Positions 10,677-61,957 of a stretch of DNA of 64,000 nt are shown piece after piece. This stretch comes from Chrysomallon squamiferum (Eukaryota > Mollusca > Gastropoda > Neomphalida > Peltospiridae). The stretch's first letter is position 1. Every line of letters starts with the position of its first letter. Below the pieces are notes generated by a model. The model did not search any database. It worked only from the letters and a program-made list of their open reading frames with translations, and had not been told where the DNA came from. Location: the NCBI GenBank assembly GCA_012295275.1, contig CM022665.1:46848595-46912594 (forward strand), read 5' to 3'. Both the position numbers and the translations under genes were made by a program.

Positions 10677-10748
10677 ATGTTTTCTTCAAAATTCATTCTA
10701 CCTGGATTATTCTGTGTCACTGCTCTCATCTTCACCTGCTGTATTCAG
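10677..10748 (+). CDS. Gene B exon 1: signal peptide
   Basis: Encodes MFSSKF, a hydrophobic core ILPGLFCVTALIFTCC and IQ, then GTAAAT. It has 24 codons, phase 0. It is almost identical to exon 1 of gene C. Confidence 0.85.
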
Positions 10749-13700
10749 GTAAATTTATGTTTGAAATTTTACCTGTCTGCCTACTAGTTCAACTTTGATC
10801 TCAACATTTTTAAAAGATATACTATTTTCATTAATTTGAAGTGAGATTATTTACTTACTTACGTATTTACTTATTTATTTACTTTGTTACTAAGTTTGTC
10901 AGTTATTTGTTTATTTATTTGTTACTTTAATCCACTTTGTCAAATTACAGGACTTTACAGTACATTTTAAATAAGTTTTGAAAAAAATAAATTATTAGTA
11001 AAAATTATTTTTATTATTATTATTATTATTATAATTCTACTACTACTGAAGGACAACGTGTTATAAAGAAACTTTGAAATTTTTGAATAAACCTAAATAA
11101 TGAAATTTTTAATAATACAGTCTTTGATAGTAATTAACAATGTCAACAAAAATGAATGGATTTTTGGAAATAAACTGTGTTTATTTAATCATCACTATAA
11201 TTAAATACAATTAAATCGGAAAATATTAATTTATATTTTTATATACAATTTATGACAGATTTAGCAATTAATTTTAAAATGCAAAAATAAACAAAAATTA
11301 GGGAGAAAATAACCGTTCGTAACAGATAAGACGGCCCTTTGCGGTGTTTGCCGGTTATAGCGATATTTTAGCTATTTCAGCCAAATAAGTTTGATGTCGC
11401 ACTTTTGATGTGTGATGTTTCTGAATGTTCTGGACATTCGAAACTTATCATGAAATAAACTGTATTTATGCTATGCAAATGTAATTCATAATTCATATTT
11501 CAGATGTATACAATAGCATTATACATTACGTTCTGATTATTGTAACATATAGATTTCTTTTCATATCACCAGACTCATCCGACCAGAGTAGGCAGTTACA
11601 ATATGATGGTCTTTAACATGAACAAATGGTTTCAAACTGTCTTCTAGATCTTAAATTATGAATAAATAAAAGTGGGACTTTGAATTAGTAATAAAATATC
11701 CATTTACGTACCATTTTCCAAAAATACTGATGTGAAAAATTTGAGAATGGATTACAGGTGTAAAAAAACACCAAGCAGAAACATATTCTAACAAAACAAA
11801 ATAAAACTAAACAACAACAAAACAATGACCATCCAAACGATCAGTGCTGTTAATCACAGAAATATTAACACAGCTGAATATTTTTTTTTATTACTAATTC
11901 TCCTATGCAGTGTAGTTTTTATAAAATCATAAAAATCTTCTTTTCACCACTTTCAAAAACTTTATTTCTGTAAAAAGCATCACCATCATCATCATCATTC
12001 TGATTGTTATTGAATACAGCTACAAATGAGATTATTCGATATATGATTTTACTTATACTACATTTATTAGCATTTCAAATCTAAAATATTAAAATGACTA
12101 ACATTCTTATTAAAGCACTGAAATATCTGGCTATATAACAATAGCTGAATCTTAGAATACTGTTTTGTATTTACTAGGTAAGTTTTAAAAATCTGCTGTG
12201 TTTGTTACTGAAAACAATATATATTTAATTTAGTGTGTTTCAGATTTCTGTCTGTTCTTCGGGTGTCGAGTGTAAAACAAAAGACAACTGTACAGTACAT
12301 AACAGCTTCTGTAACAACACAGAATGTGCAGGTTAGTGATGGTTTCTATCAACAAAACACAACATGTTTACCTAGTAAGTCATTTCAATAATATGTATGT
12401 TCATAATTTTAATATTAAAATGTTATAATAACAGGTATCTGTGTTAAAAGTACATCTATATTGGGTTGGGTTGAAAGGCTAATAAAGGATATGTTAGTTT
12501 AATGTGCAGAGACATGAGAACTGTTTTTCAGTCTATTCTAGAATGTTAATTATTTACTTTTTCATGATTTTTGTTGTTTGCATATCATGCTTCAGTTTTT
12601 GGTTCTTTTATATTTTGTTTTTATCTCTTGGATGAATATATTTGAGAAACCCAGTATCAGCCTTTCATAAAACTAATAATGAAAATTGTGTATTTATTTT
12701 GCTAAGCAAGTCTGTGAGAATGATAGTGGGTAATAGCCATGACATATATAATGCTATTATTATTATTATTATTATTATTATTTTTGTATGCAAATAACCT
12801 GCATTGATTAGTACTACTAAATGTATTTAAAACTATTCTTTTTCATATATGTTTTTTTGAAAAAGGAATTCTATCTTTACTTGCTAGTACAATAATTATT
12901 GCTGAATCATTCCTTGCATATATAGTGAGAGGTTTGATGGCCTGAACAATAATAAATATTATATAGGATTAAGACAATAATTTAGTAACGATTATTGCAT
13001 TATCAGCAAACTCTGTTACCAACTTTGTACATGTTTACATCGATAAAGGTGTTTATTGAATCTGCAGAATGAAAGCTGATTTTGTATGAAATGAAATATT
13101 TATATGTTCACTTGAAATTTGATTTCCAGATTCCATTTTTGTATATTTTCTATGTCAAATGGTTGCCATATGACTCTTGTCCATTTTACATATCTTTTGA
13201 CAAATATTTATCATGGTAGTCTAAACTTGTTCTTTATATGTTTAATGGTAAAGAAACGTATGCATCAAAAGATGTTTGGCTTATGAAATTTTAAGTCCAG
13301 ATTAGTTTTACTAATAATAAATTCATGAAATGTAGATAGTATTTAGGAGCTTTTGGCCATACTGAACTTATTTTCAAACTAAGTATTAACTTTGCGCCAA
13401 CATACACCTAGAACCCTTTCTAGTTTTGCCTTGTTACATTTGAAATACCTCATCAATATTCATTTGATAACTCAAGTCATTATTTTGGGTACCAAGGTGC
13501 ACAATTTGCAGACGAATATCAACCAGGAAAATCAGATTAGTAATGGAAATTAATAACCTGGAAAATCATGAGAAGGGTGGAAAGAAGGAGAAGAAGAAAA
13601 AACAGAAGAAGAAAAAGAAGAAAATAATTAATAATTAGAAAAAAAAACACCTTATAAAATAGTAACATGACGTCAAATATTATTTGCTGAAGGAAATAAA

Positions 13701-16700
13701 ACAATATATATATTTTTTAATTTATAAATCGGTTGACAAACAAATTAAAAAGATGATCATAATAAAAAATAAAAAAATAAAATAAAATAAATAAACAATC
13801 AACCAAAACATAGCAGATTATTACTCTAAAAGTACTGCTTGTCTTAAAAGTGAGTAAAATTGTCAATTAAAAAATAAAATGATTCTAGAACGCAAAATGT
13901 AATTATAGAACCCATGACTCTCTATATAGAGAACAAAAGATTTCACTGTTGCTTTTGACATCGCCTTGAATTATATTTATACTTTTGCAAAAAGAATTAA
14001 GACAATATTTTTTTGGTTCCTGAATATAACTTACTGATGTTTGTAGGAATGTTTCTGAGAAATACATATAGAAATTATAATTCTATAAGGAATATATTGC
14101 TATAGAATAATATAAGATATATTTTCAGAAAAAAGTCTTGAAGAAAAATGTATAGGAACCAAAGAATGTGAACAGGAACATACTGAATGTGTTAAAGATG
14201 GTTCTGGCGTTAAGACGTGCCTGTGTCAACTCCGGTTTTATCCAACACAAGACATTTGTAAGAACAGTAAGTAACTGACTGATTAATGTTATGAAATTAT
14301 GAAACAATAAAGAATTATTTGAAAAATTGCATGTTTCCTAATAGATATACATCCTTTAATTACACAGTTTCTATTTTCTAATTTCTAGTTTTATCTAAAA
14401 AAGAAATATATATATATATATATATATATAGTTCTATGACAAATGTTTATTTGCATTACATGAAGAACTTTAAAAGAGTTATGTAAGCTTTGTAATTATA
14501 AAATGCTTCATTGGAAATATGTCTCCTTTCTGGAGGAAGATGGTATTCGTACCACAACTGTGTCTAAAAAGTTATGGTTATTTCACTGACTGTAAAAAAT
14601 AAAATAACATTTTAAGACTATGTGTTACATGATTTTGTAACATTATGATTGATTCAGTTAATTACTATTTTGTTACAGCTGAAAATCTGAAGGTAAGAAA
14701 TGTGCAGCAGAAATTCGCTAATGTAACATCAGTAACAGTACAGTGGACTGAACCAACAGATATGTCTGTAGTAGATTCTTATATCTTGTCATTGCAACCA
14801 GCAACTGACAATAACAATATCATTGTACTTAAAGGGAAAAATGAAACAGAAATAAATAATCTTCAGCCAGGACGTTTGTACACTGTAAATGTCACAACAA
14901 TTATTTTGTATAAAGAACAGCAAGTGTCAGTGAAAAATATACAAGTTAGAACTAGTAAGTATTGTTTTCTCAAACTCTGTTTAGTGCTGATCCATGAGTT
15001 TATTGACATTTCATGCTATTTGTTTCATTGTATTAGTTTTCTTATTTATATGTCTGTAGGATGTCAAAAGTATGTAATATTAAAATACACTGGTTAAGAT
15101 GTCAAAAATGTAAAGCATTTAAGAGCAACTATCAGCAAAAACATAACTGACTATTGCTTAGTATCACATTTGTAATCTATATGAAGCTTGAAAGTTCTGA
15201 GTTGATTTCGAATATAGTTGTCAATTCATTTGCAATAATTGACTGCCCTTCCTTTAAACATTACCAACGAGCTAACAAAATGTTATCTAATGAAATGTGA
15301 CGTCACACAAATTAAAGCAAAGATCAGTACCATCATGTACAAGAAAAACAGCAAATAATGGTACTTGAATTGTAGACTGTTTTAAATATGCAACAATAAT
15401 AAAGACTTACACGAAAAATGCACTCCATAAATTTGTAAAAGATTAGACATCAGGGTAATCACGGAAGCAAAATGTTAACTGCAAAATTAAAAAATAATAT
15501 ATAAAATATACAAAAATAAACAAATGAGTTGACAGTGCATAGAAATACTCTAAAAATGGCTTAAATTTAACAAATTGCATTGTATTTTCTTTATTATTAC
15601 TTTTTGTTTAGGATATTCATATCTGGACACTGATGTGGTTATTTGCATAATTCAAAACTAGATATCTGATCCTTTCTAGGCCATGTAAATGTATTATGGA
15701 CAGATAAGGAATTAAAATATGTCTTCAGAATTTTTGTATGACATCACATACATGAGACATGATGTAACTGACCCAAATTATGTAATATTTACATACAAAT
15801 TACAAGTCAGTTGTCAGAGACGATGAATTTATTCCTTTATTGACTATTGGAATGATGTTTGGTCTGTTTAATCCTGCAGATTGGAGGAATCGATCATTAA
15901 AACGTTTTTATCTCAGATAATAATTCGGAGACTTGTGACATGTTGCACTGACCTACCATATGCCTGTGAGGTAAACTTCAGAACTGGAATGCACAGTTGT
16001 TATGCACATCATATATGATCTATCAAACACAACTTTGAAGCAACTGCTGTAACTGATCTTGTTCATGAAATATCAGAGACATGCACTGAACCATATTGTC
16101 CAAAGTATATATGTCAGAAATTATTTGACTACTTTGGAGACTGTGTACTGATCACCACAGACAGGATGTTGTGACATCCAGGACTGCATCAGTGCAGATT
16201 CTGCATTATTTTTATGATGTGCCTGAAATGGATAGTGATCTCAGCAGAACTCATTAAATCTGACCTTAAAGATGTTGACAGGTTAAAAGGTGAAAACACA
16301 GATTCATTTCAAATAAGATATCTTGAATGTATTTTAAGCTAACTGCCTGAAACCATTTGGCTTTTTTTGTAGGATTGTTTCCCTGGAAAGACATCTGGTC
16401 TTAAAGTCGCTAGTTGGCATATGTATCATACAAAATGCAAGGCCTAGAAAAATTGTTGTACCTATCTTTTCAGTATAGGTGTGCAGTTGCATCATTTGCA
16501 TGTTTCAAGGATTTCAAACTGTACAGCAAGGTTTCATGATAACTACCCGTTAACAGGTCACTTTGGTCACTATACTGTTGCCAATGACGAACATAACCTA
16601 AGCATGTTAGATGATTTTGTCTGCAAGATATCGTTTCCACTCTGTCCTATGAGGCCAGAGAAGTCAGAAATGATGGAGGCTTATACATGGTTGACCATAA

Positions 16701-19700
16701 TGGTAAATCATCTGTTCACTTCCTCCCCATGACTGATATGGATCACACCATTTTATCTTGTGTATATTACACTTTGCTATTTGTTGTCTCTGTAAAAAAG
16801 CATAGCTGAATTCCAATCCTGATCTTTGATCAGCCTTTATGATTAAAAGTATGGACAATCATTCATCGTGAACTTAAGACAGTAGTCTTAAAATTAGGTG
16901 GTTTTTACACCCTGATGATGTGTGCCCTGAGGTTTTAGGGAAATGCTTGAATTGATCTATGCTGTAAATGTAATACACTAAATGGTATTTTGGAAACATA
17001 CGCGATATAATGCAATGCTCAATTCATTACATATATCAGAAGCATAACACCTCTTAATATCATGTGTTGGATGAAGAATTATTCCTTCACAGAAACCACT
17101 TTAAGATAATCCTGGCATAATTTTTGATGGATATTCACAAGATCCATCCACCAAAAATATTACCCTTGAAAGGTGAACAAACAGAAAAGCTGGTCCAATG
17201 ATTTTAGTGCAGATGGCAATGCTGATTTCATGATAGTGAAAACCTGTGTTAAGTATTCGTCTTCAGCCTGCATCCACCTAATATGTAAAGATATAGACGA
17301 CTGTGTTGTTTCTACTGCCCTGATGATAAAGAAATCGGAAAAAAAAACTAAAAAGAAGAATCTGGGATCTTGTATACCTGAGACAGCAGTTAGGAAAGGA
17401 ATTATTGAATGAACTGCCAGTGATTTGTCATTAAAGGATGTGACACAACATCCAGGATATTAAGAATGATGAAAGGGGCATCTCCCAAGAAATGCATAAA
17501 TGCCGAGTTCAAGGTATTTCTGAATATTCTGATTTGAGGGGAACTTGAAGCAGGTGAGCTTGAAATGTCAGGAGAACAAGTTATTTTTTTTTTTGTTATT
17601 TGGTGGAAAGACGGAAGAAAAAGTTTTCAGAAAAGGTTGCCACCAGTCCTAAGTATGTTAAAGTTCAGACATTGTGTTACTTTGCATTGCTCCTTACTTA
17701 AAAATGCAACTGATTGGTCCATTTCGAACACAGGTTGCAAAGGTTCGCTATAGTAACACTACTGATGTTGCTCTTGACACTGATTATGAAGAATTAGATC
17801 AAGTGTTTTAAGAAGATGGCAAATAGAACCATATATAAATATCTATACCAACCTCTTTATCCTGCCTCCAGAAATGGTTTGAGAGAAGGGATGGTCCCAG
17901 TATAGGCAGAAACGAAACTTAATATTGGTTCACAGTTTCCATGTAATGGTGATATAGCATACAGTTTGTAATTCATTTGTTTTACCAACTGCCAGTGCTT
18001 GTGAATACTTTTTCATCACGTGGGTTATTTTCATTTGCATGAATACATTTGACTGAAAATTTATCTCTTTCACATTCTATCTCCAACTGATAATATTTAT
18101 AGGACAGGTTGAAACTTAATATCCATTAAAAACAAAGTGTTTTCATAAAGACATTTTATAAATACCCTGCAACAGATCAAAAGAAACACTTTACAAGACT
18201 GAGCAAAACCAGAGATTTTCATTGAGGCAAATTATAAAACTAGTTGTAATAAAACAACAGGAGACCAAACATAGCATTATAAATAATATTTCCTTCCATA
18301 AATATAAAAAAAGTATCTTAATTGCTCTTCTATAGATCCAACGTACCTGCAATATTTGAGTAAAAATGTATTTATAATGAAAAGAATTAATGTATTTACA
18401 GTTTTCTAATTTAAATATTTGTTATCAATACTAACTCAACAGGTCTGTTAAAATTAATTTAAATAAAGTTAATCCCACAGTGATGTTTATATATCTGATT
18501 ATAATTTAATATTATTGAGTATTATTCTTTTCTACAATTTTCTTTTAATCTGTGTCTGTCTAGAAACTGAGTACAATCAGAGTTGTATACAAGGAGCTGT
18601 GTGTTTTTATAACAATACTTCTTGTAATAACAATCTTAATCGGTGTCTGTGCACTCACAACTTTTTCTGGAATGGAGAACAATGTCAACAAGGTAAGTAA
18701 AATGATAACACAATTAGCCTAATACTGTTATAATTAAGAAAATAATGCATCCAGTATTATATGTATTTTGTAATTTTTAAATTCATAATATTATTAATAA
18801 TTTGAAACTTTTAAAGACTAATATTTATCGCTAAATCCGAATTAAAAAAAAAAAATGTATTTGGTATCATTTTTGTTTTGGTAAAATCATTAAAGGTCAG
18901 CAGAAAATGGCATCAGTTGTCTAAAAATACCATTTAATATGAAAATGTTTTCGATGAGAAAATTGTGCTTTCTAAGATCAGCAGTTAACATAGATTCAGT
19001 TCTAAGGAACATAATTAAAATCCCTGCCCATGTTTGAAAATAATGAAATTTGTGTGATGAGAAATAGTAATGTTCCTTTCAACTGTAGCTTTTTAAACTG
19101 CTTGACTGTTAAATGAAACAAATATACAGAACATAAAAAAATTCCATATGAATATAAATAGGATTTGATGCTTTTTAACAAAGACAAGTAAACACTCAGC
19201 TATTTCTTTAACAGTGACTGATCTCAAGCCAAAGAAAATTAATTTTACAAATATTAATCGTAAAAACATCACAGTGACATGGCAAAAAGAAACTGAGGTT
19301 TCTGTAATATCCTGGTATGAAATATCATGGACACCATTCAGTGGCAAAAAGAGTGAACTGAATAGGTCAAGAGAATCAGTAGTAATAACCATGTTGAAAG
19401 CTGGAACGAAGTATACAGTGACTGTAACAACAGTTGTTAAAGATAACTCGAAAATACACAGAATTAACAAAACAGCGACAGTTACAGCAAATGATTGGTG
19501 TTTGTCCTTTTGTTCATCTAAATGTTAAATCACACTAAAATAAATGGAAGACATCCGTGCTTGAAATTTCTAGAAAATATTCATGTATTTATATATAATT
19601 TTAAAGTAAAAACTGAAGAATTCTGTTTAATGCTTGTTACAAATACAGACATTGACACCATTTTTAAATGCATTCAATTATTTTTAAAATAAATAAATAA

Positions 19701-22700
19701 ATAAATGATAGTGTTTAATAATAAACAATATCTATTGTCACCAGTACAAGCTCTGAAAGGAACCTGCACAAATACAGCACAGTGTGGAAAACAGTATTTT
19801 GCTGAATGTTTTGATGGAAGATTTTGTCGATGTATTTCTGGACGATACAGAAATATTGATGGAGAATGTCATTTAGGTATGTGACATAAACACAGTATCA
19901 GTTTTCATTTCAATACAGCAATTTGTATTTAGAAATGACATTCTAGAATATTAAGTAGATGACTGAGGCAAATAAAACACTTTTTGTGTTATAATATGTA
20001 GACTGAGCTGAAAATAACATTTCCAGTCTTTTTAAAGAAACAATCTTTCAGCCAAAAATATAAAATGAAGAGAAAATATCTGATGCATGAAGTAAACAAC
20101 ACAAACAAACAAGTGAATAGCAATTATAAACCTTGCTGTTGTTTCAGAGATGGCAAACTCAAACCACAGTGATTAATCTTTATGTTTCAGTCGAAGAGTT
20201 AGGAGTGATTTCTTTTAATCACAGCCAAGATGCACCATGGAGTGAGAAATTTACATGGAAGACATCGACAAACCTTTCTACAGCAGCTAAACTGTCCATC
20301 ACTTACCAGATTACAGTTACTCCTGGAAATATCACAAACAACACATCTGGAGATTCAATGACAGTCCAGAATCTGAGAGCTGGAACGAAATATTCTGCTC
20401 AGTTTATCACAATGTTTGAGCAGGATGAAAAAACGGAAATTGTCAACAAACAAACAATTGAATTTACAACAAAAAGTAATAATCTATTATATATTTAAAT
20501 CTCACATTTATTTCAGGTAGTCTTTGAATCTGGAAAAGATGTGCAACTGGTGAATCTATAATGGATCAAAACGATACATTTTTTTTCTCAGTGTGAAAAT
20601 CTTGAAAAAAGCATAAACTATTTTTAATTATTTTAAAATCATTAAAAATATTACTGGCATGAAGTTTGGCATTTAAATATTAAAGGCTGATAACACTGAT
20701 TTTGCTTGTTAAATTTTATACAGTTCACTGATGCAAGGTCTTACATACATATTACATAAATGAAAATTATTAATGACAGATTACATAAATGAAAAAATTA
20801 TATATAGATCATGACAATTATTTTGTTTTTGTGATTGAAAACTATATATAATAATTTACAGAAATAGCAAATAACGAGACATGTAAAGCTGGAGATGTGT
20901 GTTCGGACTCGAATGCCTCTTGTAGTTTGACAAATCCTACACGATGTCTGTGCAAAGAAGGATACTTCTGGGGTCCAACACCTCTCAACTGTACACCAGG
21001 TATAACTAGTGTCCTTACCTTGTGTCATCAATTAACTATAAATCTGACTTCAACAAAATGTTAATTATTATAAAGACCAGCGAAGAAATGATTATTTACT
21101 GCAAACTGAAGTAAATGAATCTCTGTGATTTCTAGTTGCTTTTAATGTTTAGCAAAATATTGAAAAATCATGTGCAGTACATATATATCAAAAGAAACGT
21201 GTTTTATGGCATGTCAAGTGAAAGATATATTAATAAATGTAAATCACATACTTATTTATTTTGGTTAACAGTCACCAGTCTCAACCCAAAGAACATCAAG
21301 TTTCCCATCATTAATCGTGAAAACATCACAGTGACATGGCAACAAGACGGTGAAGATTCTCAAGTATCTGGGTACAAAATATCGTGGACACCAGACAAGG
21401 GCAGCAATAATGAGTCGAAATCATCGAACACGTCAGTTATAACCAAGTTGAAAGCTGGAACAGAGTACAGGGTGACTGTAACAACTGTTATTAATGACAA
21501 GACAAGAATACAGAAAATTAACAAAACAGCGACAGTTACAACAAGTGAGTGGTGTTTGTTCTTTTGTTCATTTAAATGTTAAATCACACTAAAATAAACA
21601 GAAAACTTCCATGTATGCAATATCTACATAATGATACATGTATTTATATAAAATTTTAAGGTAAAATCTGAAGAATTCTGTTTAATGCTTGTTACAAATA
21701 CAGACATTAACTACATTTTTTAAATGCATTCAACTAATTCTAAAATAAATAAATAAATAAATAATAGTGTTTAATAATAAACATAATTTGTTGTCACCAG
21801 TACAAGCTCTGAAAGGAACCTGTACAAATACAACACTATGTGGAAAACAGTATTTCGCTGAATGTTTTGATGGAAGATTTTGTCGATGTATTTCTGGATT
21901 TTATAGAAACATTGATGGAGAATGTCATTTAGGTAGGTGACCTAATCACAGTATGAGTTTTCATTTCAGTGTAGCAAATTAGATTTAGAAGTGACACACC
22001 AGGAAATTAAGTAGATAACTGAAGCAACTAAAACACATTGTATTATGTAGACTGAGTAGAAAATACCATTTCAAGCCTTTTAAAGAACAAATCTTTCAGA
22101 CAAAAAAGATAAAATGAAGAGAAGATACCTGATGCATGAAAGAAAAAAGGAAAAAAAAAGGATTAGCATTAGCAATTTTAATTTTTTTTTTTGTTTTAGT
22201 TTGTTTCAGTGATGGCTAACTCAGTGTCCAATGATTATATTTGTGTTTCAGTTGAAGAGTTAGGAGTGAGTTCTTTTAATCACAGCCAAGATTCACCATG
22301 GAGTGAGAAATTTACATGGAAGACATCGACAATCCTTTCTAAAGCTCCTGACCTGTCCACCAATTACCAGGTTACAGTTAATCCTGGAAATATCTCAAAC
22401 AACACATCTGGAAATTCAGTCACAGTGCAGAATCTCAGAGCTGGAAAAAATTATTCTGCTGAATTTATCACAACATTTGAACAAGATGAAAAAACTGAAA
22501 TCGTCAACAATGAAACAATTGAATTTTCAACACAAAGTAATGATATTATTTGAATTCATACATTTATTTTGACTTTGTCCTTGACGCTGGAATGAATTTA
22601 CAATTGGGGATGTTAACTTGGATAAAAGAGTATATTTTAAAGAATTAAAACATATTACAAGCAGGAAGTCTTGCATTTAAATATTAATGTGCTTGTTAAA

Positions 22701-25700: not shown

Positions 25701-26114
25701 TCAGTACTTTTTGGTAAAAATCTATCATTACTTCACATATGTTTAAGAAATTTTTATTTTCCATAATATCTTGTCTTTAACTTTTTAACAGAAGGCTAAT
25801 TTAAATAGCAGATATCGTATTTAATAAACTGCTTGTTTTAAAATTGTTTAATCACAGATGGAGATACAGTAATTGCATACAGTTTACATATATTTGAACA
25901 ATAATATATTTTTTATTACACACTGGGATTTTAAAGCACATGCAGAAACTACCTGGATGAAAAGTATAACCCCAACCCATTAAAATAGAAGTGTATTCTG
26001 AAATCATTTAGAAATTATTTGTCAAATAAAGTAAATATAAATAAAAGCTTTTTGAAAGTTTATATTTACCAATACATTTAACAGAATAAAAAATAAAAAA
26101 ACCAACCTCAAAAG

Positions 26115-26185
<71 letters not shown>

Positions 26186-44365: not shown

Positions 44366-44672
44366 TTATGTTAGTTTGCTGTAGACATTTTGAGAGGGTG
44401 CTGTAGAACCCAGTCTTTCATATTCATTTTCACCAGCAGCAGCCTGTCTAACGTTAACGTAACCGTCATTTCCGAACGTGCTTGTTCCAATCTGCTGCGT
44501 GTCTTCTGCTTGTTCTGACAGCGGCACATTGTAGATGCCACTGACTTCTCTGTTTGAGAGATTTCCCACGTGACCACCATCTTGGACACTGCTCATCATT
44601 TCATACTGGTCATTTTGTAAGTCACTGTTTCTTTTTGAAAATCCCCGTTTTGCTCTGTGTCTTCTGACGTAC
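44366..44672 (-). CDS. Gene C exon 26: tyrosine-motif cytoplasmic tail
   Basis: A single 307-nt exon with stop TAA at 44368-44366. No kinase or phosphatase domain. Five tyrosines: QYEMM, IYNVP, GYVNV, EYERL and VYSKL. YERL and YSKL are separated by nine residues, one more than the classical ITAM spacing of six to eight. The nearby TM exon is likewise shared with gene D. Confidence 0.84.
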
Positions 44673-46107
44673 CTGTTAGAACATAGAATAATTATTTAAT
44701 CATTTATCTAGAAGGCAAATATGCCAACTCATATCCCGAACATTCGTAATAATTTACAGCTGAATCACAGATGAATACTTGGAGTAGGATGTAGCATGAT
44801 GGTGCAATGTTGGTCTCATGGCAAATTGGTTCTAGATTCTAGATTCACCAGTGCAACTATCAATATCTCATGGTTATTTTATAAAACCTACCTAGTCATT
44901 GGTATATATTTAAAAAGTTCTTTTTTGCTAATTGATAAATGAGTAGTCTGTGATGAAACTGCGTGGGTTTCTTCTGTTTATCAAATGTGTCTTTAATTAT
45001 AGGTATAAAATAAAACCATGTTACAAGCAAATTGTTAATAAAACATTAATGCTATTAATGCAGGCTATTTCAAAACACTGCTTATTATTTTTGTAAGTGT
45101 TCCAAAGTGAAAAGACTTCATCACTGGTCAGTATTTTTAAAAAACAATCCACTGTTTATCAAAAAGAAATTATATCAGAAATAATGTAAAACATATTACT
45201 ATGATAAATGAAAATTCTCTTCATTAAATTGTAAACCAAAACAAATTCTCACCAGAACAAAATTCCACTGACAACAACCAACAACAGGAAAAGTATCACT
45301 GTCACCACAGAGAAGGCTGTAATAGCTGAACTGACTTGATTTTCTTTTTCTGATTTAGCTGTAAAATAAGAAGACATATAATGATGTTTATTTAACACAC
45401 ATATACTGACACATACATAAACACACATAGTCATATTCCTAAATAGTCCCCAATGTACACATTTATATACAGATATTTACATAAGCTCATCTTCTCAGAC
45501 ACATATTCTCATATACTGACACATGCACACACCTACATAAACACAATACAGACACAAATACACATGCTCACAGATGCACATATTCTGACATGCCAACACA
45601 TCCACAATACATGCAGACTTAAATGTGAATATCAAATACAGTTTAGTCTACACAAACCTGTTTTAGTTTCAAACTGAATTCCAGAACTTTCCTGGCAGCC
45701 AACATCAGTACAAGCAAAGAGAACAGCTCTGAAATCAGACAAACTTGAGTTTTATTTTCTGTTTCTAGAGTCGTAAACTAATAAAAGACAATGACATGAT
45801 AATATTTAATAGCCAATCTGTTAATATTTAATTGTTTATATCCTTAAAAAGTTTATATAACTGTAACAGACTAACTAATCTGCTTTACTCAAGTTTGCTG
45901 TAGTAAAAACAAAAAAACAAAAAAAACAAACAAAAACAAAACAAACACGAATGAATGGATGTTTAATGAGAACCCAGCACGAAAATAAAATAACAAGAAC
46001 AAGTATATTGTTATAATTATTATCTTTGATTTTGCTGTCACCTGTCAAATATTTATTTTATTTTCTGACCTGTTTTCGCGTTTTTATGAAATATAAGTTA
46101 ACACACA

Positions 46108-46160
<53 letters not shown>

Positions 46161-52100: not shown

Positions 52101-54359
52101 TACATACATATTCATAGAAACCCCCTCAGTTTATTACGTCATTCGGATCAGACAATCCGTTGTATTCACCTAACCAATACTAGAACTCCTCTTAAAGAAG
52201 TATAATAAATTGAAGAAGAAACACTACTCACTTGTTGTAACTGTCGCCGTTTTGGGGTTTTTCTGTATTTTGTTGTTGTCATTAACAACTGTTGTTACAG
52301 TCACCGTGTACTCTGTTCCAGGTTTCAAGTTGGTTATTACTGATGTTCTCGATGTACTTGACTCAGTCTTATTGCCATTGTCTGGTGTCCATGATATTTC
52401 ATACCTGGATATTACAGAAACATCACCCTCTTGTTGCCATGTCACTGTTGTGTTTTTGCGATTTATATTGATAAAATTGAGGTTCTTCAACTTGAGATAA
52501 GTGACTGTTAAAGAAAACAACAACATTAAGTATGTGATTTACATTGATCAATATATCTTTTACAGGACATAGCAGACAACACATTTAAATATGCTATATA
52601 TGTATTTGATATGGTTTTACATTTTGCTAATACTAACCGCAACTGGAAATGTTAAAGGAATAATTATTTGTTTTCAGTCAGTAATTATTTCTTTTTCAGT
52701 TGTCTCATAAATTTATAATTTATAATTAATTGAAGATTCAAGTTAAGAAAACAAATTTTACCTGATGTACATGTGAGAGGTGTTGGACCCCAGAAGTATC
52801 CTTCATTACACAGACATCGTGTAGGATTTGTAGAACTACAATTGGCATTCGAGTCCAAACACACATCTCCAGCTTTACACGTCTCGTTATTGGGGATTTC
52901 TACAATTTAATGAAAAGATGAAGTTTTATAATCAAACAAAACTTTCAGTCTCTAGATCATACTAGCTTTTTAGAATAATATCTATAAAATAAACACTAAT
53001 ATATTAATATAATAAAATGTACAGATTTGAATGTTTGAAATCTGTACATGTCTGAATACTGACAAGATTATTTTTAACAGTCATCAAATTTCTTGATGAA
53101 TAAAGCATTAATATTTATTACTGAATTATTTCATTTTGTAATAGACTTTGTAATATGTCTCCATCAGATATGAATTAGTAATATTTGATATTTAGAAAAA
53201 AACAATTATGAAAATAATCTATTTTCTTACTTTCAGTTGTGAATTCTGGGGATTCTATGCTGTTAGTACGTTCTGATTTACCATCTTGATCCAGAATTGT
53301 TACAATACTTGCAGTATACAACATTCCCGCTTGCAATCCAGACACGGTTACCGACGTTCCAGACGAACTATTCTGACTGCTGCCAACACTGACCTCGTAT
53401 AAAATGGTAGAATCTGCTGCTTGAGAAATGTAATTTGACTGCTTCCATGTTAGTTTGACACTCCAAAACGACACTTCAGTGTAAGTAAACGAATTTGGTT
53501 TCAGCTCATCCACTAAAAGTAAAATGTAAAGTAAAAAGATTATCTTTTATTTTACTTTGATTAAATAAACAAATTAAGAAATATGTTTCAGTGTACAACG
53601 CATTTATCCTATGACAAACATCAGACGTAATGCTTACACATTCATAAATTGTTTGTAAAGTAGCAGGTTCTTTTTGTCAGTTTAGTGCAGTTTAAAATGA
53701 AACATAAAGATTAGGTGGCTGGTCTCACGTAACAAATATGTGACAAATTGAAAATGAAAGATTCACTGTTAAACACTGGTACGTAATCACTGGAAATAAT
53801 GTTACGTCTTTCAATGTGTATTTTCTATGTAAAGTTTTTAAGATATTCAGCTTTTTTCTCTCACTATCATCTGAATACATTTTATTTCCAAAACATTAAA
53901 TAAACTAAACCTGAAACATTTGTAGATTATCTACCATTATTTTAGAAATATACCAACCTGGATGACACTTTCCATCTTTGTTTCTGTACTTCCCAGAAAC
54001 ACATCTACAAACTCCTGTCTCAGAACACTCAGCAGAATACTGTTGTCCACAGTCTCTTTTAGGATTAGAACATTTCTTAGTGAGAGCTTGTACTGAAAGT
54101 AAAATAGTATTATTTATTTATTTATTCATTCATTATTCATGTATACAGTTTCTAGGATTTGGGTTTGTTTTTAATATTTTTAATAAAAATGCCTTAGATG
54201 AATGTTAATATATTCTTATAAAGTATTTCTTCAATATTTAAATAATTAAAGAATTGACACAAAATTTGCTCTGGACTAAATACAAATAGATAAGTGAATT
54301 TCAAAAATTAAGATCTCTGATAATTATTTTGAAGAAACCTTTTATTACTCTCTATCTTT

Positions 54360-54416
<57 letters not shown>

Positions 54417-57400
54417 CTTAGAAAGTGGAAATGTGTAAAAAAAATTAATAATAACATTGTTTTAAATTTAAATGATTTATTACAAATATAATTTTTACTT
54501 TTCACACCGTATATTTTAGCTGTCTGCTTTATTCAAAATCAAGTAGAAAATTCTTTATGCAACGCTGTACATACGTGTACATATATATTCATGAAAAAGA
54601 AATTAATATTAGCTCGTTACATCTTTCAAATCAGTCAGTCTGATGTGTTCACGTAACCAGTCGTAGATCCTCTCTTAAAGTCAGAATAAAAAAAGTGAAG
54701 AAACACTACTCACTTGTAGTAACTGTCGCCGTTTGGTTAATTTTCTGTATTTTCATGCTGTCATCAATAACAGTTGTTACAGTCACTGTGTACTTGGTTC
54801 CAGGTTTCAACATGGTTATTACCACTGATTCATTTGAGGTACTAGATTTATTCTTACTGCCATTGTCTGATATCCACGATATTTCGTACCTGGATATTAC
54901 AGAAACCTCACCCTCTTGTTGCCATGTCACTGTGGTGTTTTCACGATTTGTATCGATAAAACTAATCTTCTTCAGCTTCAGATGATTGACTGTTAAAGAA
55001 AAACGATATTTACAGTGTGTCCTTGTATGTCAGAGTGTATGTCACTGCATTCTATACTTCCTTTGCAGGATATACACGTTTATGTTGCTGCATATCAGTA
55101 GCACTGACGATGTTTCAGCTAAGTTTAACATTGCTTACAGAACTACTGACCACAGAGGGCCATTTATCTCCATATTTTAAATAAATAATCTTTTATTCTT
55201 CACTGGCCTTTCAAATATCACATTTTCATGTGTGAATTTAAATTTAAAGGCGTTAAATAAAAAAGCAAAAAATGCATGTACATTAGTTTACAGCCACCAG
55301 AGCCAGACAGATTTTTCATTTTAAACAGACTGTTCAGAGAATTACCTTGGATTATGCAGATTATATACAGAAGTATTTCTTTAAATGATTATTCAGATTT
55401 CCAAAACGGAATTACCTTGGATTATGCAGATTATATACAGAAGTATTTCTTTGAATGATTATTCAGATTTCCAAAACGGAACTGAAGTACAAATGAGAGA
55501 TTGGGCATAAATTATTAATTCATTTGGTTTGTAACATTTTCCATCTAGATATGAAATATTAGGAAAATTTGTAAATTATACCTGGTGTACAGTTGACAAG
55601 TTTTGGACTCCAGAAGAATCCTTCATTACACAGACATCGTGTAGGATTTGTAGAACTACAAGAGGCATTCGAGTCAGAACACACATCTCCAGCTTTACAT
55701 GTCTTGTTATTGGGTATTTCTACAATTTAATGGAAAGATGAAATTTTACAATCAAACTAAATTTTCAGTTGTTTTATAATAATACCAAGCATGAGATTAT
55801 GAATTCATTGTTCTTAAATTTTCACAAAAGTATTTAATTGTTTTATAGAATGTAAAATAAATACAAGAGGCATATATGATAAAATGAATAGATTTGAATA
55901 TTTGAATCTATAAATGTACGCACATATCTGAATACTGACTATATTGTTTCTAATGGTCATAAAAATTCTTGATGAATAAAGCAGTAATATTCATTATGGA
56001 ATTATTCCATTTTGTAATAGGCTGCCTAATATATCCCCATCAGATATGAATGAGTAATATTTGAAATTTAGAAAAGCAATTGTGAAAATAATCTATTTTC
56101 TTACTTTCAGTTGTGAATTCTGGGGATTCTATGCTGTTAGTACGTTGAAATTTACCATCTTGATCCAGAATTGTTACAATACTTGCAGTATACAACATTC
56201 CCCCTTGCAATCCAGACACGGTTACCGACGTTCCAGACGAACTATTCTGACTGCTGCCAACACTAACCTCGTATGAAATGGTAGAATCTGCTGCTTGAGA
56301 AATATAATCTGACTGGTTCCATGTTAGTTTTACACTCCAAAACGACACTTCCTTGTAAGTAAACGAGTTTGGTTTCAGCTCATCCACTAACAGTAGAAAG
56401 TTATATTAACACATAATCTTTTATTTTACTTTGTTTAAATAAACAAATTAAGAAATATGTTTTGATGTACAACGCATTTATCCTATAACAAACATCAGAT
56501 GAAATGCTTACACATTCACACATTGTTTGTAAAGTAGCAGGCTCTTTTTGTCAGTGTAGTAAATTTTAAAATGAAATATAAAGTTCAGGTTGTTAGTCTC
56601 ACGGAACAAAAATGTGACAAATTGAAAATGTTAAACATTGGCACGTAATCACTGGAAATAATGTTACGTCTTTCAGTGTTTATTTTCTCTTCTAAAGTTT
56701 TTAAGATATTCAGCTTTTTTTCTCTCACTGTCATCTGAATACATTTTATTTCCAAAGCATTAAACTAACAAAATCTGAAACATTTGTAGATTATCTACCA
56801 TTATTTTAGAAATATACCAACCTGGATGACACTTTCCATCTTTGTTTCTGTACTTCCCAGAAACACATCTACAAACTCCTGTGTCAGAACACTCAGCAGA
56901 ATACTGTTGTTGTCCACAGTCTCTTGTAGGATTAGAACATTTCTTGGTGAGAGCTTGTACTGAAAGTAAAATAATATTATTTATTCATTTATTATTTTAC
57001 TATTCATGTTTCTAGGAATCATTTTTTTAAATATTTTAAATAAATAGCTTAGATTAATGTTAATATATTCTTCTAAAGGATTTTTTCATCTTTCAGATAA
57101 TTATAAAATTGACAACAAAACATGTAGTAGACTAAAAACAAATAGATAAGTTAATTTTAAGAATTGATAAAGATCTGAAATAATTTATTGAAGAAAACTT
57201 TTATTTCTATGTGTGTACTTATATATCTTAGAAAGCTGAAATGTGTAAAAGAAATTAATAAAAACATTGTTTTAAATTTAAAAAGTAATTGATATATTAC
57301 AAATTTAATATTTTATTTTTACACCATATTATTTGGCTGTCTGCTCTGTTGAATATCATAAAAAACATTGTTTATGCAATGATGTACACACATGAACATA

Positions 57401-60400
57401 TATATTCGTGAAAAAATATAAAATCAGTTTCTTACATTATTCAAACCATAGTCTGATGTCTTAATCTTTCCAATACTAGAACCCTCTTAAAGATAACATA
57501 AAAAAATTAAGAAACACTACTCACTTGTTGCAATTGTTGCTGTTTTGTTAATTTTCTGTATTTTCATGCTGTCATTAATAACCGTTGTTACAGTCACTGT
57601 GTACTTGGTGCCAGGTTTCAGTTTGGTTATATTTGACGTGTTCGATGATGCTGACTCATTCTTGCTCCCCTTGTCTGGTGTCCATGATATTTCATACCTC
57701 GATATTACAGAAGTATCACCGTCTTGTTGCCATGTCACTGTGGTGTTTTCACGATATGTATTGATAAAACTGATGTTCTTCACCTTCATACGAGTGACTG
57801 TTAAAAAGAAAAAGGTGTTTTAACAATGCCTATGTGTGTCACTACGTTCAATACTTCCTTTACAGGGCATGTTGCTGTGTATCTGAACTGTTGGTGATGT
57901 TTCAACTACGTTTAATGTTGCTTGCAGAACTACTGACCACAGAGGGACAGTTAAATAAATCTTATTCTTAACGAGCTTCTCAAATGTAACATTTTCATGC
58001 ATAAAATTAAATATAGAACTGAATCAAGAAACAAGAAATGCATGTACATTTGTTTACAGCCACCAAAGCTGGTCAGATTTTACATTTTAAACAGACTGTT
58101 TTCAGATAAAGAATTCAAATCAGATCTAGTGATAAAATTCCACAACAAATATTTTTTTATATATACTTTACTGAAAACAAAAGTTCAGAGAATTATATTG
58201 GATTATGCAGATTCCTACATAATTATCTCTTTAAATGATTGTTCTTACTTCCAAAACAGAACTGAAGTACAATTGAGATTGGGCATAGATTGCTAATTTA
58301 TTTAGTTTCTAACATTTTATTAATGAATGAAATATTTTGCGAACTGATAAATTATACCTGGTGTACAGTTGAAAAGTTTTGGACTCCAGAAGTATCCTTC
58401 ATTACACAGACATCGTGTAGGATTTGTAGAACTACAAGAGGCATTTGAGTCAGAGCACACATCTCCAGTTTTACAAATCTCGCTAATCGGTATTTCTGTA
58501 ATTTATTTTAATATACACTTTCTAATCATAAAACCAAATATGTCAAGATCTTTTTATAATTTTTTGAAATAATGAAATAATGGTATCTTTAATAAAAATC
58601 GTGTTTATTTTTCATGTTGAGAATTGTATAACCATTTACCTTTCTGTTTACATTTATCAACAGTTTGATATTCATTAACTAGGACATATACATATAATTA
58701 TTACATTCAACAAGCAATTGCTTGAAGATTTCACGTTTTAAATATAATATTTTCTGCTGGTAATTTTTTAGTCTTTGTAACTTAAAATATATGTTTCCTT
58801 TGATAACATGTTCTACATTCAGAATTTTTATTTTATTTTTCGCTGTGTTAATTTAGTAATTATTCCGCCAACAGAATCTGTAAATAGACATAAGAATATA
58901 TACATATATATATATAACGTTTACTATTTCACTGAAGATTTCGCAATGAGAATAAATTATTTTCCTCAGCTTCTTTATTTTAAACGAATTATTTTCACAT
59001 ATATTTGAAGCCCAAGATCAGCAGAACACAAATACATGAAATATGACAAAACAAATTATTACTTTGTGTTGTAAATTCAATTGTTTTGTTGTTGAGAACT
59101 TCAGTTTTTCCATCTTGTTTAAATATTGTGATAAAAGTAGCAGAGTATGACTTTCCAGCTTTCAAATTCTGCACTGTCACTGATTCTCCGATTGTACTGT
59201 TTGAGAGGCTTCCAGGATTCACAGTGACGTGGTAACTGATGGAATAACTAGGTAATTCAGGAAGATTTGCTGATGATTTCCATGTAAACTTTTCACTCCA
59301 TGGTGAATCTTGGCTGTGATTGAAAGAACTTGCCTGAATCTCTTTAACTGAAACACAAATATTATCAGTTATAATTTTGTCAGACCTAAACATAAAACAT
59401 AAGGTTGTAATTTGTGTCTGATAAATAAGTACGCTTTTTCAGTATTTTGTTTGTTTGTTTACTTGCTTGTAAATTTTGACTGAAATCAAATAACTAACTG
59501 CTTTGACTAACAAAACTTGCACATAATCATTCAACTGAAAACAAATACGCGAGTTAATCTTGATACTGGTAATACGATGATGTAATATTTACATAAAAAA
59601 TATAGTTAGGTGTGATATTGTACGTTTTGATATTATACACAGAATACAGTGGATAACAAAGTGAATGGAGATTAATTCATTTCTTCTTGATGTATCAGTT
59701 ATCTAATTTAGGTTTTGGAAGTTTGTGTGTGATTGCGTGTGTTTCTGCCTGAGAAAATGAACTTACATTTTCTTGATATAAGAGCTACATTACAATAATC
59801 TATATGGATAAAGAAATATTTCACTTGTATTTATATTGTTGGATGAAAATATCTTATATATTTATAAAATGTTTTTTAAATCTTGACTCTAAAAAGGTGT
59901 AAAGTTGATATAAATATGATTAATAAAACTCGTAATTTATTTGTATCCTTACAAAATACAGAACACCTTTCAGTTAACTGCTGTCAAAATGAACATAGAA
60001 TATGATGAACTCTCTATTTCAATTTTATTTTAGGCTGATTCCTAGCATCTTGCACTCTTATCCTTTTAGTTACAAGCTAACAAAAATAACTTCATATATT
60101 CTCCAAGGATGATATTAAAATCTACAAAAATGGTGTCCTTAAGAGATGTCTCAAAAAATCTCAAACGTGACCAGTGTCCACTAGTTTTTAGTGAAAGACA
60201 GACAGAGATACCTTTCATTAAGATTTCGCCCCAAAATGAAGAGACTGGCACAGATATATTTTTTAACACAGAAACCTATTTATTAAAGCAACTTACTAGG
60301 TAAACAGGTTGCGTCTTGTTGATAGTAGCCATCACTACACAGACACACACTGTTGTTACAGTAACTGTTGTCTACTACAGATGTACAGTTGTTGTCTGTT

Positions 60401-61957
60401 CCACACTCTACATCCAAAGAACACACAGAAATCTGAAACAATATACAAAATGAATTATTGCGTTTGTTTTTAGTAACGTTATACTTAACAGATATTTAAA
60501 ACGTATCTAGTAATCACAAAACAGCATTCTAAGATTCAGTTGTAGATATAGCCAGAAATTCCAGTGCTTTAATAATAATGTTATTCACTTTAAAATCTTA
60601 GATTTGAAAAGTTCAAGTAAAGCAATATAATTATAATTATATATCAGTTTTTCTTATTTGTAGCTGTATTCAATAACAATCATAACAATAATGATGCTTT
60701 TAACTGCATAAGGAGAATTAGGAATAAAAAAATATTCAGCTGTTTAAATAGTTCTGTGATTAACAACACTGACTGTTTTTGTTTGTTGTTTTTTTACACC
60801 TAAACCCCATTCTCAAAACGTGAGCCATAAAGTTTTAGTCAGTACTTTTCAAATGGTTTGTATATGAAAAGTTTTACTTTTATCTATTCAGAATTTAAGA
60901 GCTAGAGACCATTTTTTGATGTTAGACACCATTACATTGTGTCTGCCTACTCTGATCGGATGTGACTGATGACATGATAATCAGAACATGATGCATTGAC
61001 TAACAGGATTGATTGGACTATTATAGATATCTGAAACATGAATTATGAGTTTTATTTTTGACTGATTTTTTAACGGAAAATGTCATCACTAATGTGCAAC
61101 CAGGGTATTTGTTTGTTTGTTTGCTTCACACTAAATATAAACTTTAAGTTTGAAAGCAATACAAAACTAAAGTTTTTACACATCATAAAGACAGTTTATT
61201 TCATGATACATTTTTACAGTCTGAAAAAAGCCGTGATATCACACATTACAAACGCAGCATCAAATTTATTTGGTTCAAGAAGCTTTTGCATCTAAAATAT
61301 AGCTGTAATCGGTAAATACCGCAAAGGACCGTATTATCTGTCACAACAATTATTTTCTCCCTTAATTTTGTGTATTTTTACATTTTGAAATTAAATGCTA
61401 AATCTGTGATTAACTGGATATAAATAAATAATAATAATAATAAAAAATCATTTATTTACCGATTTAACTGTATTAATAGTCTGTTGATTAGATGAACGGA
61501 GTTTCTTCCAACAACTTCGCATTAATTTTTGTCGACATTGAACTGATATTTGAACAGAACTTCTAATTATAATTAAATTAATGTAGGCATAATACAATCA
61601 TGCATCATTGTCTGACTGCTGAATTATAATGAGAACGAAAATGACTGTCATTGCTGTTTAGATACGAAGAACTCTACGAAAATCATCTACGACAAAGTGG
61701 ATTAAGCCAACAATAAATAACTTAATAACTGACAAACTTAGTAACAAAGTAAATAATAACTAAATCAGTAAGTAAGAATGTAAATAATCTCACTTCAAAT
61801 TAATGATAGTAGTATATCTTCAAAAAATATTGAGATCAAAGTTGAACTAGTAGCCAGACAGGTAAAATTTCAAACATAAATTTACCTGAATACAGCAGGT
61901 GAAGATGAGAGCCGTGACACAGAATAATCCAGGCAGAATTGATTTTGAAGAAAACAT
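44366..61957 (-). CDS. Gene C: phosphatase-less EGF-like/FN3 receptor with ITAM-like tail (complete)
   Basis: Twenty-six exons sum to 4,953 nt: 1,650 residues plus stop, with all phases matching. Order: signal peptide (1-24), eight six-Cys EGF-like modules alternating with FN3, ten FN3 in total (to about 1362), a membrane-proximal domain with RRFRR (1417-1421), a helix (about 1525-1549) and a tail of about 100 residues. The ectodomain is homologous to gene B module by module, but the tail has no PTP domain. It carries YEMM (1572), YNVP (1596), YVNV (1620), YERL (1633) and YSKL (1646). Known motif meaning: YxxM binds PI3K p85, YVNV binds Grb2, and paired YxxL motifs recruit tandem-SH2 kinases. 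Inference: a non-catalytic, tyrosine-phosphorylated signalling receptor forming a functional pair with phosphatases such as B. I know no named orthologue. Confidence 0.85.
45253..45358 (-). CDS. Gene C exon 25: transmembrane helix
   Basis: SSAITAFSVVTVILFLLLVV and on to LFW, about 25 hydrophobic residues, then YVRRHRAKR in the next exon as stop-transfer. Phase 1 in, phase 2 out. Confidence 0.86.
45658..47346 (-). CDS. Gene C exons 21-24: membrane-proximal domain with furin-like site
   Basis: Exons 47188-47346, 46630-46755, 46296-46392 and 45658-45728. The second exon begins ERRFRRST, matching R-X-R-R, at the position of RHKR in gene B. Then LPYRATNDSWINK, FCNGPLKPATKYT and FACTDVGC. Exon phases equal those of gene B, so the two genes share this domain by descent. 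Confidence 0.78.
46083..46178. repeat. (AC)n flanked by a perfect 19-bp inverted repeat
   Basis: Left arm 46083-46101 (TTTATGAAATATAAGTTAA) and right arm 46160-46178 are exact reverse complements, enclosing about 58 bp of AC repeats in a gene C intron. Confidence 0.88.
46495..46605. repeat. Degenerate TCAG/TCAA/TCGA tetranucleotide repeat
   Basis: Imperfect 4-bp repeats (CAGTCAGTCGATCAATCAAT) in a gene C intron just beyond the 46630 exon end. Confidence 0.8.
47698..48628 (-). CDS. Gene C exons 19-20: Cys-containing FN3 module X
   Basis: Exons 48441-48628 and 47698-47899 with the same phase-0 split as in gene B (MFVSWNRPDS, CQQKVEFYCSDC, then HCEGVTPVKVN and LPFTNYTVSVFTYNEL). C has one X module and no Y module. 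Confidence 0.8.
49098..50216 (-). CDS. Gene C exons 17-18: two consecutive FN3 modules
   Basis: Exons 49938-50216 (LEVNWTPAT, YDIIWTPVD, DLTPGKQYSVLMRAF) and 49098-49391 (VPDKPGPFDEEKSN, DYYIVTL, YYTLHITAV). They correspond one to one with gene B exons 14 and 15. Confidence 0.82.
50603..52504 (-). CDS. Gene C exons 13-16: FN3-EGF-FN3-EGF cassette 3
   Basis: Exons 52232-52504, 51663-51800, 50984-51265 and 50603-50740, phase 1-1. Donors GTGAGT, GTTGGT, GTAAGA and GTAAAA. The unusual GTTGGT donor is shared by the equivalent exons of all three cassettes. Confidence 0.82.
52762..54989 (-). CDS. Gene C exons 9-12: FN3-EGF-FN3-EGF cassette 2
   Basis: Exons 54714-54989, 53958-54092, 53231-53512 and 52762-52899, phase 1-1. 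The EGF exon 53958-54092 is one codon shorter than its partners (one Gln less before QYSAEC). Introns align with cassettes 1 and 3, apart from a (GT)n tract at about 54366-54415. Confidence 0.82.
54366..54415. repeat. (GT)n microsatellite
   Basis: About 25 GT repeats in the intron after the first FN3 of gene C cassette 2, absent from the same intron of the other cassettes. Confidence 0.92.
55341..55480. repeat. 70-bp tandem duplication in a gene C intron
   Basis: Two adjacent copies of a 70-bp unit starting ATTACCTTGGATTATGCAGA at 55341 and 55411, nearly identical, so recent. A single diverged version is at about 58190-58262 in the cassette 1 equivalent. Confidence 0.85.
55582..57797 (-). 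CDS. Gene C exons 5-8: FN3-EGF-FN3-EGF cassette 1
   Basis: Exons 57525-57797, 56822-56959, 56105-56386 and 55582-55719, all phase 1-1. FN3 strand B is TTVTWQQDG and SVKLTWNQS respectively; EGF-like cysteines include CSDTGVCRC. It is followed by two further cassettes with similar exons and introns. Confidence 0.82.
58358..59347 (-). CDS. Gene C exons 3-4: FN3 and EGF-like module 2
   Basis: Exons 59063-59347 (FN3: SFNHSQDSPWSEKFTW, LKAGKSYSATF) and 58358-58495 (EGF-like: ICKTGDVC, CLCNEGYFWS). They match the third and fourth exons of the gene B cassettes, so they look like the second half of a cassette. Confidence 0.82.
60297..60432 (-). CDS. Gene C exon 2: EGF-like module 1
   Basis: A 136-nt exon ending in phase 1: ISVCSLDVECG, then CNNSVCLCSDGYYQQDATC. 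It is the intact version of the module that is truncated in gene B. The intron to exon 1 is about 1.45 kb and holds the segment shared with 6590-6860 and, inverted, about 11280-11350. Confidence 0.82.
61886..61957 (-). CDS. Gene C exon 1: signal peptide
   Basis: ATG at 61957-61955 in the context GGCGCCATG. Encodes MFSSKSILPGLFCVTALIFT, then CCIQ, 24 codons. It differs from gene B exon 1 by only a few bases, and the 5' UTR is equally conserved. Confidence 0.86.

Follow-up and report, generated by a model that had tools for sequence, protein, structure and literature searches.

Closely similar receptor ectodomains on receptor-phosphatase and tyrosine-tail cassettes in a gene cluster of Chrysomallon squamiferum

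Paired activating and inhibitory receptors are central to vertebrate natural killer and myeloid cells, and their inhibitory arm borrows a cytosolic phosphatase. The subject of this work is a cluster of receptor genes in the gastropod Chrysomallon squamiferum, lying in and around a stretch of 64,000 nucleotides (C1:46848595-46912594, hereafter the window, whose coordinates are used unless a contig is named), in which similar distal ectodomains are joined either to a protein tyrosine phosphatase (PTP) cassette or to a cytoplasmic tail cassette with tyrosine motifs. It is fairly probable that these are recognition-type receptors on an R3-like phosphatase scaffold, and we propose that members of the two classes signal as pairs. 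In vertebrate paired receptors of the FcR/KIR-like kind, e.g. Xenopus XFL, the domains are of the immunoglobulin type, none of which as such are present in the cluster, and the inhibitory member recruits a phosphatase through an immunoreceptor tyrosine-based inhibitory motif (ITIM), whereas the corresponding partner in the cluster carries a PTP domain of its own.

Draper/MEGF10 resembles the cluster in having an activating form with an immunoreceptor tyrosine-based activation motif (ITAM) and an inhibitory form in one organism, and the tail of one cluster gene, C, has homologues among the tails of EGF-like receptors on contig C4. As PMC4503800 and PMC8092387 describe it, Draper-I signals by its ITAM through Src42A and Shark, and the splice form Draper-II, which has an ITIM, is inhibitory through Corkscrew. 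Those are splice forms with a recruited Corkscrew, whereas the cluster consists of separate genes with a built-in phosphatase. In Biomphalaria sudanica, PMC12297450 reports for the region SudRes1, which is associated with schistosome resistance, that 10 of 23 genes encode MEGF domains (EGF repeats), three of these being receptor phosphatases; the MEGF receptor phosphatases resemble the C4 cluster described below, from which the C1 cluster differs in its FN3/EB ectodomains, and the main text of that article uses none of the terms ITAM, inhibitory, activating and tail. Botryllus fester/FcoR and Hydractinia Alr are invertebrate recognition receptors with hemITAM-, ITAM- or ITIM-type tails, for which PMC12065747, as far as its account goes, describes no partner with a built-in phosphatase, unlike the C1 cluster.

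The phosphatases of the cluster share with R3-type PTPs (PTPRB, PTPRJ/CD148, PTPRO, PTPRH and fly PTP10D) a single PTP domain, FN3 domains and a C-terminal tyrosine in a YxN context; a membrane-proximal domain that matches the Pfam family PTP_tm is seen in the cluster siblings C and D. They are unlike them in gene expansion, in EB/EGF-like cassettes, in having siblings with a tyrosine tail in place of the phosphatase, and in a WED instead of a WPD loop. Pairs of a receptor phosphatase and a tyrosine-tail receptor are named nowhere in the open-access literature searched, which is not proof of their absence; R3-like receptor phosphatases as one arm of paired receptors would be new.

Layout of the cluster and mosaic origin of the tail genes

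The scan covered the window with 200 kb to its right and 30 kb to its left (294 kb, of which 5.4 kb are N), and genome searches spanned 404.6 Mb in 22 contigs. Module matches place at least eight related receptor genes, A to H, over about 235 kb, from -27,585 to about 207,937. R3-like receptor phosphatase exons occur in A, B, E, G and H, all on the plus strand (PTP genes); C, D and F lie on the minus strand and are PTP-less, with a tail exon in place of the phosphatase exons (tail genes). The claim that A and D repeat the two classes represented by B and C thus held, and E, F, G and H extend them. Gene E may be more than one gene, since its first EB exon is present twice and it contains a 200-base N gap. 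B, C and D were modelled by a homology-guided splice search and the models finished by hand, transmembrane (TM) exons being hand-placed; these models are predictions from DNA; A, E, F, G and H are known from matches in a tblastn module map, in which matches with E > 0.02 covering less than 80% of the module were left out.

Among the 42 PTP-exon matches in the 294 kb scanned, 41 are on the plus strand and the lone minus-strand match is weak (E 0.35). Splicing of C into a downstream PTP domain, which the original prediction had set against its own reading, finds no support in the DNA, the strand of C having no PTP exon bar this weak match. The idea that C is an alternative end of a cluster phosphatase gene is likewise disfavoured, as all but this one of the PTP-exon matches are on the opposite strand.

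B and C had been described as sharing their architecture up to the TM helix, and this was borne out. Their signal peptides are near-identical and start at 10677 and 61957, and their promoters (position -200 up to the ATG) share 84% of bases, with 73-92% identity in comparisons among A, B, C and D and 13-45% for 10 random pairs. Both contain EB/EGF-like and FN3 modules and, as read from the sequence, a Cys-bearing split FN3; a furin-type RX[KR]R is at the same place in all eight cluster genes, and the five exons that end with the TM exon have intron phases 1,1,2,1,2 in B and C alike. Beyond the helix, a single PTP domain (PF00102, 254.8 bits) follows in B, and in C and D no PTP domain was found with Pfam. 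Read from the genome, the clustering of genes that closely resemble one another in the ectodomain and differ in TM and cytoplasmic parts demonstrates a paired architecture.

The two ends of the tail genes have different nearest relatives. Every module of C, D and F was compared with the copies in other genes to find the closest one, wrong-strand matches being excluded, including the orphan membrane-proximal exon MP2 at 115051. Out of 30 distal modules with copies in both classes, 27 are nearest a PTP gene, and 12 of 12 membrane-proximal modules are nearest a tail gene; nine further distal modules (four FN3b and five FN7-FN8) have no tail-class competitor and stand outside the 30. A second comparison used 400-bp bins with introns included. 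Matched bins of the three distal blocks are nearest a PTP gene in 67 of 67 cases, and proximal bins (the last 3 kb or so) are nearest a tail gene in 25 of 25. In C, all 30 bins from 61,900 to 50,300 are nearest a PTP gene (A in 26 of them) and all nine from 47,500 to 44,300 are nearest D or F; in D, all 16 bins from 72,700 to 66,700 are nearest E, A or B and all seven from 66,300 to 63,900 nearest F or C. In F, the 21 matched bins from 132,200 to 122,600 are all nearest G and the nine from 121,000 to 117,800 are all nearest D or C, 16 bins of this gene having no match. Two C bins, from 63,500 and 63,100, are the same DNA as two D bins and were excluded.

By these sequence comparisons the ectodomain partner of C is A, those of D are E, A and B, and that of F is G. 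The original prediction had set C against B, which is disfavoured as the closest partner of C, A being nearer in both modules and bins. The tree of MP1-MP4 unites the tail genes in a single clade (100/100), and the groupings A+C and F+G, which join the partners of the distal modules, are rejected there by the approximately unbiased (AU) test (4.6e-49 and 5.0e-7); in the FN3a tree it is the tail class as one clade that is rejected (AU 6.6e-78). The synonymous distance (dS) between F and the nearest G copies is 0.015-0.108 in four FN3 modules, a low value for genes whose 3' parts are of different classes, and the exchange or homogenisation between F and G therefore looks recent. Ectodomain exchange between the two arms would still be visible in exons and introns. 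The claim that the layout is one of paired receptors, built on a receptor-PTP scaffold, is upheld by the three tail genes with distal ectodomains nearest cluster phosphatase genes, by the single tail-class clade in the membrane-proximal exons, and by a further cluster built in a similar way.

Downstream of E, on the plus strand at 115051-115173 (L014), lies an orphan copy of the tail-class furin exon MP2.

Phosphatase and tail cassettes

In the models of B, C and D every internal exon lies between AG and GT, all introns are GT/AG and each model has one stop. Gene B (10677..40254, plus strand) encodes a receptor phosphatase of 1951 aa in 39 exons. The signal-peptide exon (10677..10748) is followed by the EB/EGF-like and FN3 exons of the distal ectodomain (12244..24245), the split-FN3 exons FN6-FN8 including the Cys-bearing one (25150..31416), and the membrane-proximal exons MP1-MP4 (31806..34237), with a furin-type RHKR in MP2 (32348-32470). 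The TM exon (34623..34725) ends in phase 2, the exons of the single PTP domain (35815..39801), assigned with Pfam and the Protein Data Bank (PDB), contain HCSAGVGRSG and WED in place of the WPD loop, and the C-terminal exon (40193..40254) encodes YQNV. An FN3 exon at 19200-19497 was omitted from the model and the first EB exon shortened. On the same strand, the module map places the phosphatase exons and the C-terminal YQNV exon of gene A at 272..4488, and its signal peptide left of the window at -27585.

The PTP cassette consists of the membrane-proximal domain, the helix, one PTP domain and the C-terminal YQNV. By module matches, A, B, E, G and H have one PTP exon set per gene, and the FN3 ectodomain is seen in B with Pfam and in A, E, G and H by module matches, with EB/EGF-like modules in addition. 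The Pfam scan, which included PTP_tm (PF18861), the TM-proximal domain of PTPRJ, covered B, C and D. B has nine fn3 stretches, a single PF00102 stretch and a PTP_tm score of 20.1 bits, under the cut-off of 26.3, which is exceeded in C (27.5 bits, with nine fn3 stretches and EB at 30.9 bits) and in D (28.7 bits, with four fn3 stretches); the tail genes C and D thus retain a domain of receptor-phosphatase type without the phosphatase. When the PTP domain of B was compared with PDB, PTP10D came first among chains with a single PTP domain (251.7 bits), followed by CRYP-2, PTPRO and PTPRB; two-domain receptor PTPs outscore it because two stretches are summed. A PTP catalytic signature comprises the HCxxGxxR loop, the WPD Asp and the Q-loop, and the P-loop, the WPD Asp and QTE-KQY are retained in A, B, G and H.

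Before the catalytic exon in the cluster PTP genes sits a minisatellite (VNMQQIIINKYTVTYSAG) that repeats the splice acceptor and the first bases of that exon, at 3450-3590 and 38925-39128 in the window and at 111880-112160, 163156-163321 and 206650-206994 to the right of it.

The phosphorylatable C-terminal tyrosine of R3-type PTPs takes the YxN form, and YQNV ends all five PTP genes of the cluster. This conservation agrees with a cooperative pair, in which the R3-like phosphatase would activate Src-family kinases and these would phosphorylate the tail receptor, a scheme that mostly fits the paired signalling proposed here and differs from it in sign. Several R3 phosphatases are indeed described in PMC3676743 as phosphorylated at the C-terminus by Src-family kinases, as binding them and as controlling their activation. 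By the same account R3 phosphatases can bind and dephosphorylate these kinases; they could in this way also promote signalling. The inhibitory and activating signs in the original prediction are not supported in the form given. Common distal ectodomains suit either sign and the sequence decides nothing between them, and we regard the cooperative arrangement as possible though rather unlikely.

Gene C (61957..44366, minus strand) encodes a PTP-less receptor of 1650 aa in 26 exons. Its distal ectodomain (49938..60432) consists of EB-FN3a-EB2-FN3b cassettes and FN4, which in the module comparison are mostly nearest gene A. The membrane-proximal exons MP1-MP4 (45658..47346) have the furin-type RFRR, the TM exon (45253..45358) ends in phase 2, and the tail exon (44366..44672) contains YEMM, YNVP, YVNV and YERL-x9-YSKL. 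The open frame of C continues from MP1-MP4 across the helix (...LFLLLVVVSGILFW) and on into YVRRHR...YERLGSTAPSQNVYSKLT. Gene D (74038..63038, minus strand), the body of which extends past the window, encodes 897 aa in 17 exons, with the TM exon at 63864..63969 and a tail exon (63038..63365) containing YCNV, YVNV and YEKL-x9-YSNL.

The tail cassette comprises a class-specific copy of the membrane-proximal domain, a different helix and a tail that lacks an enzyme and contains YxN and YxxL-x9-YxxL. The five phosphotyrosine motifs that had been counted are present in C; the tails of D and F have HEMM and HEMS instead of YEMM, which leaves four, namely YCNV, YVNV or YVNA, YEKL or YERL, and YSNL or YSKL. 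In all three tails the two final tyrosines make up YxxL-x9-YxxL, and a YxxL pair with a spacing of 6-12 appeared in 44 (C), 9 (D) and 24 (F) of 5000 shuffles each. NPxY is absent from B, C and D, a further difference from Draper. A search with C residues 1380-1650 against 5.8 billion proteins gave 1046 candidates, none at E <= 0.001, and a PDB search with roughly the same residues gave one chance match (E 0.67).

Two other readings of the tail were set aside. A chance frame is disfavoured by homologous TM and tail copies on C4 and by the occurrence of the motif pair above that in shuffles, and an ITIM reading of the YxxL pair is disfavoured by Asn at position -2 in C, D and F.

Related tails on C4

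With the tail of C as query, three good copies (C, D and F) and four weak ones on C4 were found in the genome. The C4 loci have a similar TM exon (E 0.001-0.04) and tails of the type QDGGHYEIV...GGYVNA...NEYERLDPATAKQNIYEKI, and such a tail used as query matches 15 places on C4 at E <= 1.1e-22, two of which have a stop. The C1 tails are homologous to these tails of EGF-like receptors: C is 29-38% identical to the C4 tails, and the YxxL pair with spacing 9 is present in five of the five C4 tails aligned. The membrane-proximal domain of C, on the other hand, gives 23 matches at E <= 0.01, all 23 in the C1 cluster.

Nine tails lie within C4:10.53-10.72 Mb, and in C4:10.53-10.73 Mb (loci L035-L037, L039 and L040) EGF-like receptor phosphatases are interleaved with EGF-like tyrosine-tail receptors. 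The order at L039 is two EGF-like exons, a different TM exon, then a juxtamembrane exon that encodes YVNV, YINV and YYNF, and finally three exons above the Pfam cut-off for PTP. The juxtamembrane exon has five copies 94-100% identical at C4:10.53-10.72 Mb and five diverged ones. The two EGF-like exons of L039 have 92% and 86-94% identity with their counterparts at the tail loci L035 and L036, and those of L037 (which has stops) and L038 are 40-53% identical to L039, so that of the four tail loci with readable EGF-like exons two are near-identical to it in these exons. The label EGF-like is read from the cysteines, because the two L039 frames have no Pfam match above cut-off; the pattern is one that we take to be MEGF/Draper-like. 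The combination of tail and phosphatase cassettes occurs, as judged from these sequences, twice and on unrelated ectodomains, FN3/EB on C1 and EGF-like on C4.

At L039/L040 a TM-tail cassette is placed on one strand between the EGF-like and the TM-PTP exons, with a stop before the helix and YVNA changed to CVNA; alternative 3' ends are possible there. The arrangement lends itself to an explanation of the C1 cluster as one gene with alternative 3' ends, in which the tail exon would be an alternative last exon and the ectodomain would also splice to PTP exons. With the C1 tails on the minus strand and practically all PTP-exon matches on the plus strand, as given above, we consider such an origin of the C1 tail genes very improbable.

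The C4 tails also have diverged relatives at C12:2.27-2.35 Mb and 1.12 Mb, with 35-41% identity. In the first 3 kb of L040 (C4:10594500-10602499), in gene orientation, open reading frames belonging to a retroelement lie next to the receptor genes of C4.

Proposed signalling and further phosphatase loci

Ligand sharing, co-expression and the sign of signalling of the paired genes are what we infer from the paired architecture. Partners would bind the same or related ligands and act in the same cells. A Src-family kinase would phosphorylate the tail, and its phosphotyrosines would recruit SH2 proteins: the ITAM-like pair a kinase of the Syk/Shark type, the YxN sites adaptors of the Grb2 type. 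The phosphatase sibling at the same contact would erase the tail phosphates or tune the kinase, with either sign. In the most likely mechanism, tail and phosphatase receptors would encounter the same ligand at one contact, where tail phosphorylation together with dephosphorylation by the neighbour would set the output. Kinase substrate and phosphatase are apparently placed on the same kinds of sensing domains in an invertebrate genome. The named pairs A-C and F-G make ligand sharing, the tuning of signals by co-clustering and a possible basis of snail-type resistance directly testable. More tentatively, there may be a general logic in this lineage, with the eraser held covalently in one partner, exchangeable ectodomains, and one TM-tail cassette on two unrelated ectodomain families; if true, this could bear on the association of snail receptor-phosphatase clusters with parasite resistance.

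Evolutionary rates, calculated as the ratio of nonsynonymous to synonymous distances (dN/dS) on the first copy of each module per gene, are 0.15-0.31 for the PTP exons (10 of 10 pairs; seven of the eight PTP exon modules, the catalytic one being left out). The values are 0.48-0.73 for FN5-FN8a (6 of 6 pairs), 0.50-1.04 for FN5-FN6 with C included (10 of 10), 0.24-0.40 for tail-class membrane-proximal exons (3 of 3) and 0.39-0.64 for PTP-class ones (3 of 3); single F-G modules have dN nominally above dS. On these estimates the ectodomains evolve faster than the phosphatase, as is expected for recognition parts.

A number of observations weigh against paired signalling by intact, mosaic receptors. 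Modules FN5 and FN6a of C have their closest copy in D, and for FN6a of D the comparison ends in a tie. Two upstream C bins (62,700 and 62,300, with promoter and signal peptide) are nearest D; the seven bins at the 5' end of D comprise three nearest a PTP gene and four nearest a tail gene (C), and the six C bins between the two blocks comprise one nearest a PTP gene, two nearest a tail gene and three empty ones. The G promoter is only 42-48% identical to those of A-D, no signal-peptide exon was found where it was looked for in F and H, and E has weak candidates only. In B, the first EB exon (12244-12380) has a +1 frame change relative to its paralogues, with a possible new in-phase donor, and the FN3 exon at 19200-19497 has lost its donor. 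The loop is WED (Pro to Glu) in all five PTP genes and the catalytic exon, intact in four of the five, is disrupted in E, so that phosphatase activity is putative. The tails had been called ITAM-like, and the YxxL pair is there; its spacing of 9 misses the canonical ITAM (YxxL/I-x6-8-YxxL/I) and fits only the wider 6-12 form. Finally, pairwise tail dN/dS values are 0.63, 0.68 and 1.17, so that overall constraint is weak and the motifs are what stays.

Some of the explanations weighed in this work are mutually compatible. The weak constraint and the spacing speak for a docking or decoy role, in which C, D and F would keep the ligand-binding part and the tail would be a Grb2/PI3K scaffold or the receptor a ligand sink, without signalling of the ITAM type; YxN in all three tails and a YxxM (YEMM) in C agree with the SH2 preferences of such partners. 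The spacing-9 pair is nevertheless kept in the three cluster tails and in the five C4 tails despite the low identity between C and C4, and we hold this role to be doubtful. The lesions in B, the E catalytic exon and the orphan MP2 exon could also suggest that C, D and F are decaying duplicates that lost the phosphatase, with tails of chance sequence. Such decay is highly unlikely in view of three open tails (C, D and F) with in-frame length changes, the constraint on the tail-pair membrane-proximal exons (0.24-0.40 as above), intact splice sites in C and D, and homologues of the TM and tail exons in a different family of receptors.

Elsewhere in the genome, many PTP exons in a row are among the matches listed at C14:16.68-17.34 Mb and 18.78-18.82 Mb, probably another receptor-phosphatase expansion. 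At C8:8057681-8092123 (L001-L006) a pair of PTP domains lies in a single unbroken frame (650-902 codons) and occurs three times; these copies resemble PTP genes without introns.

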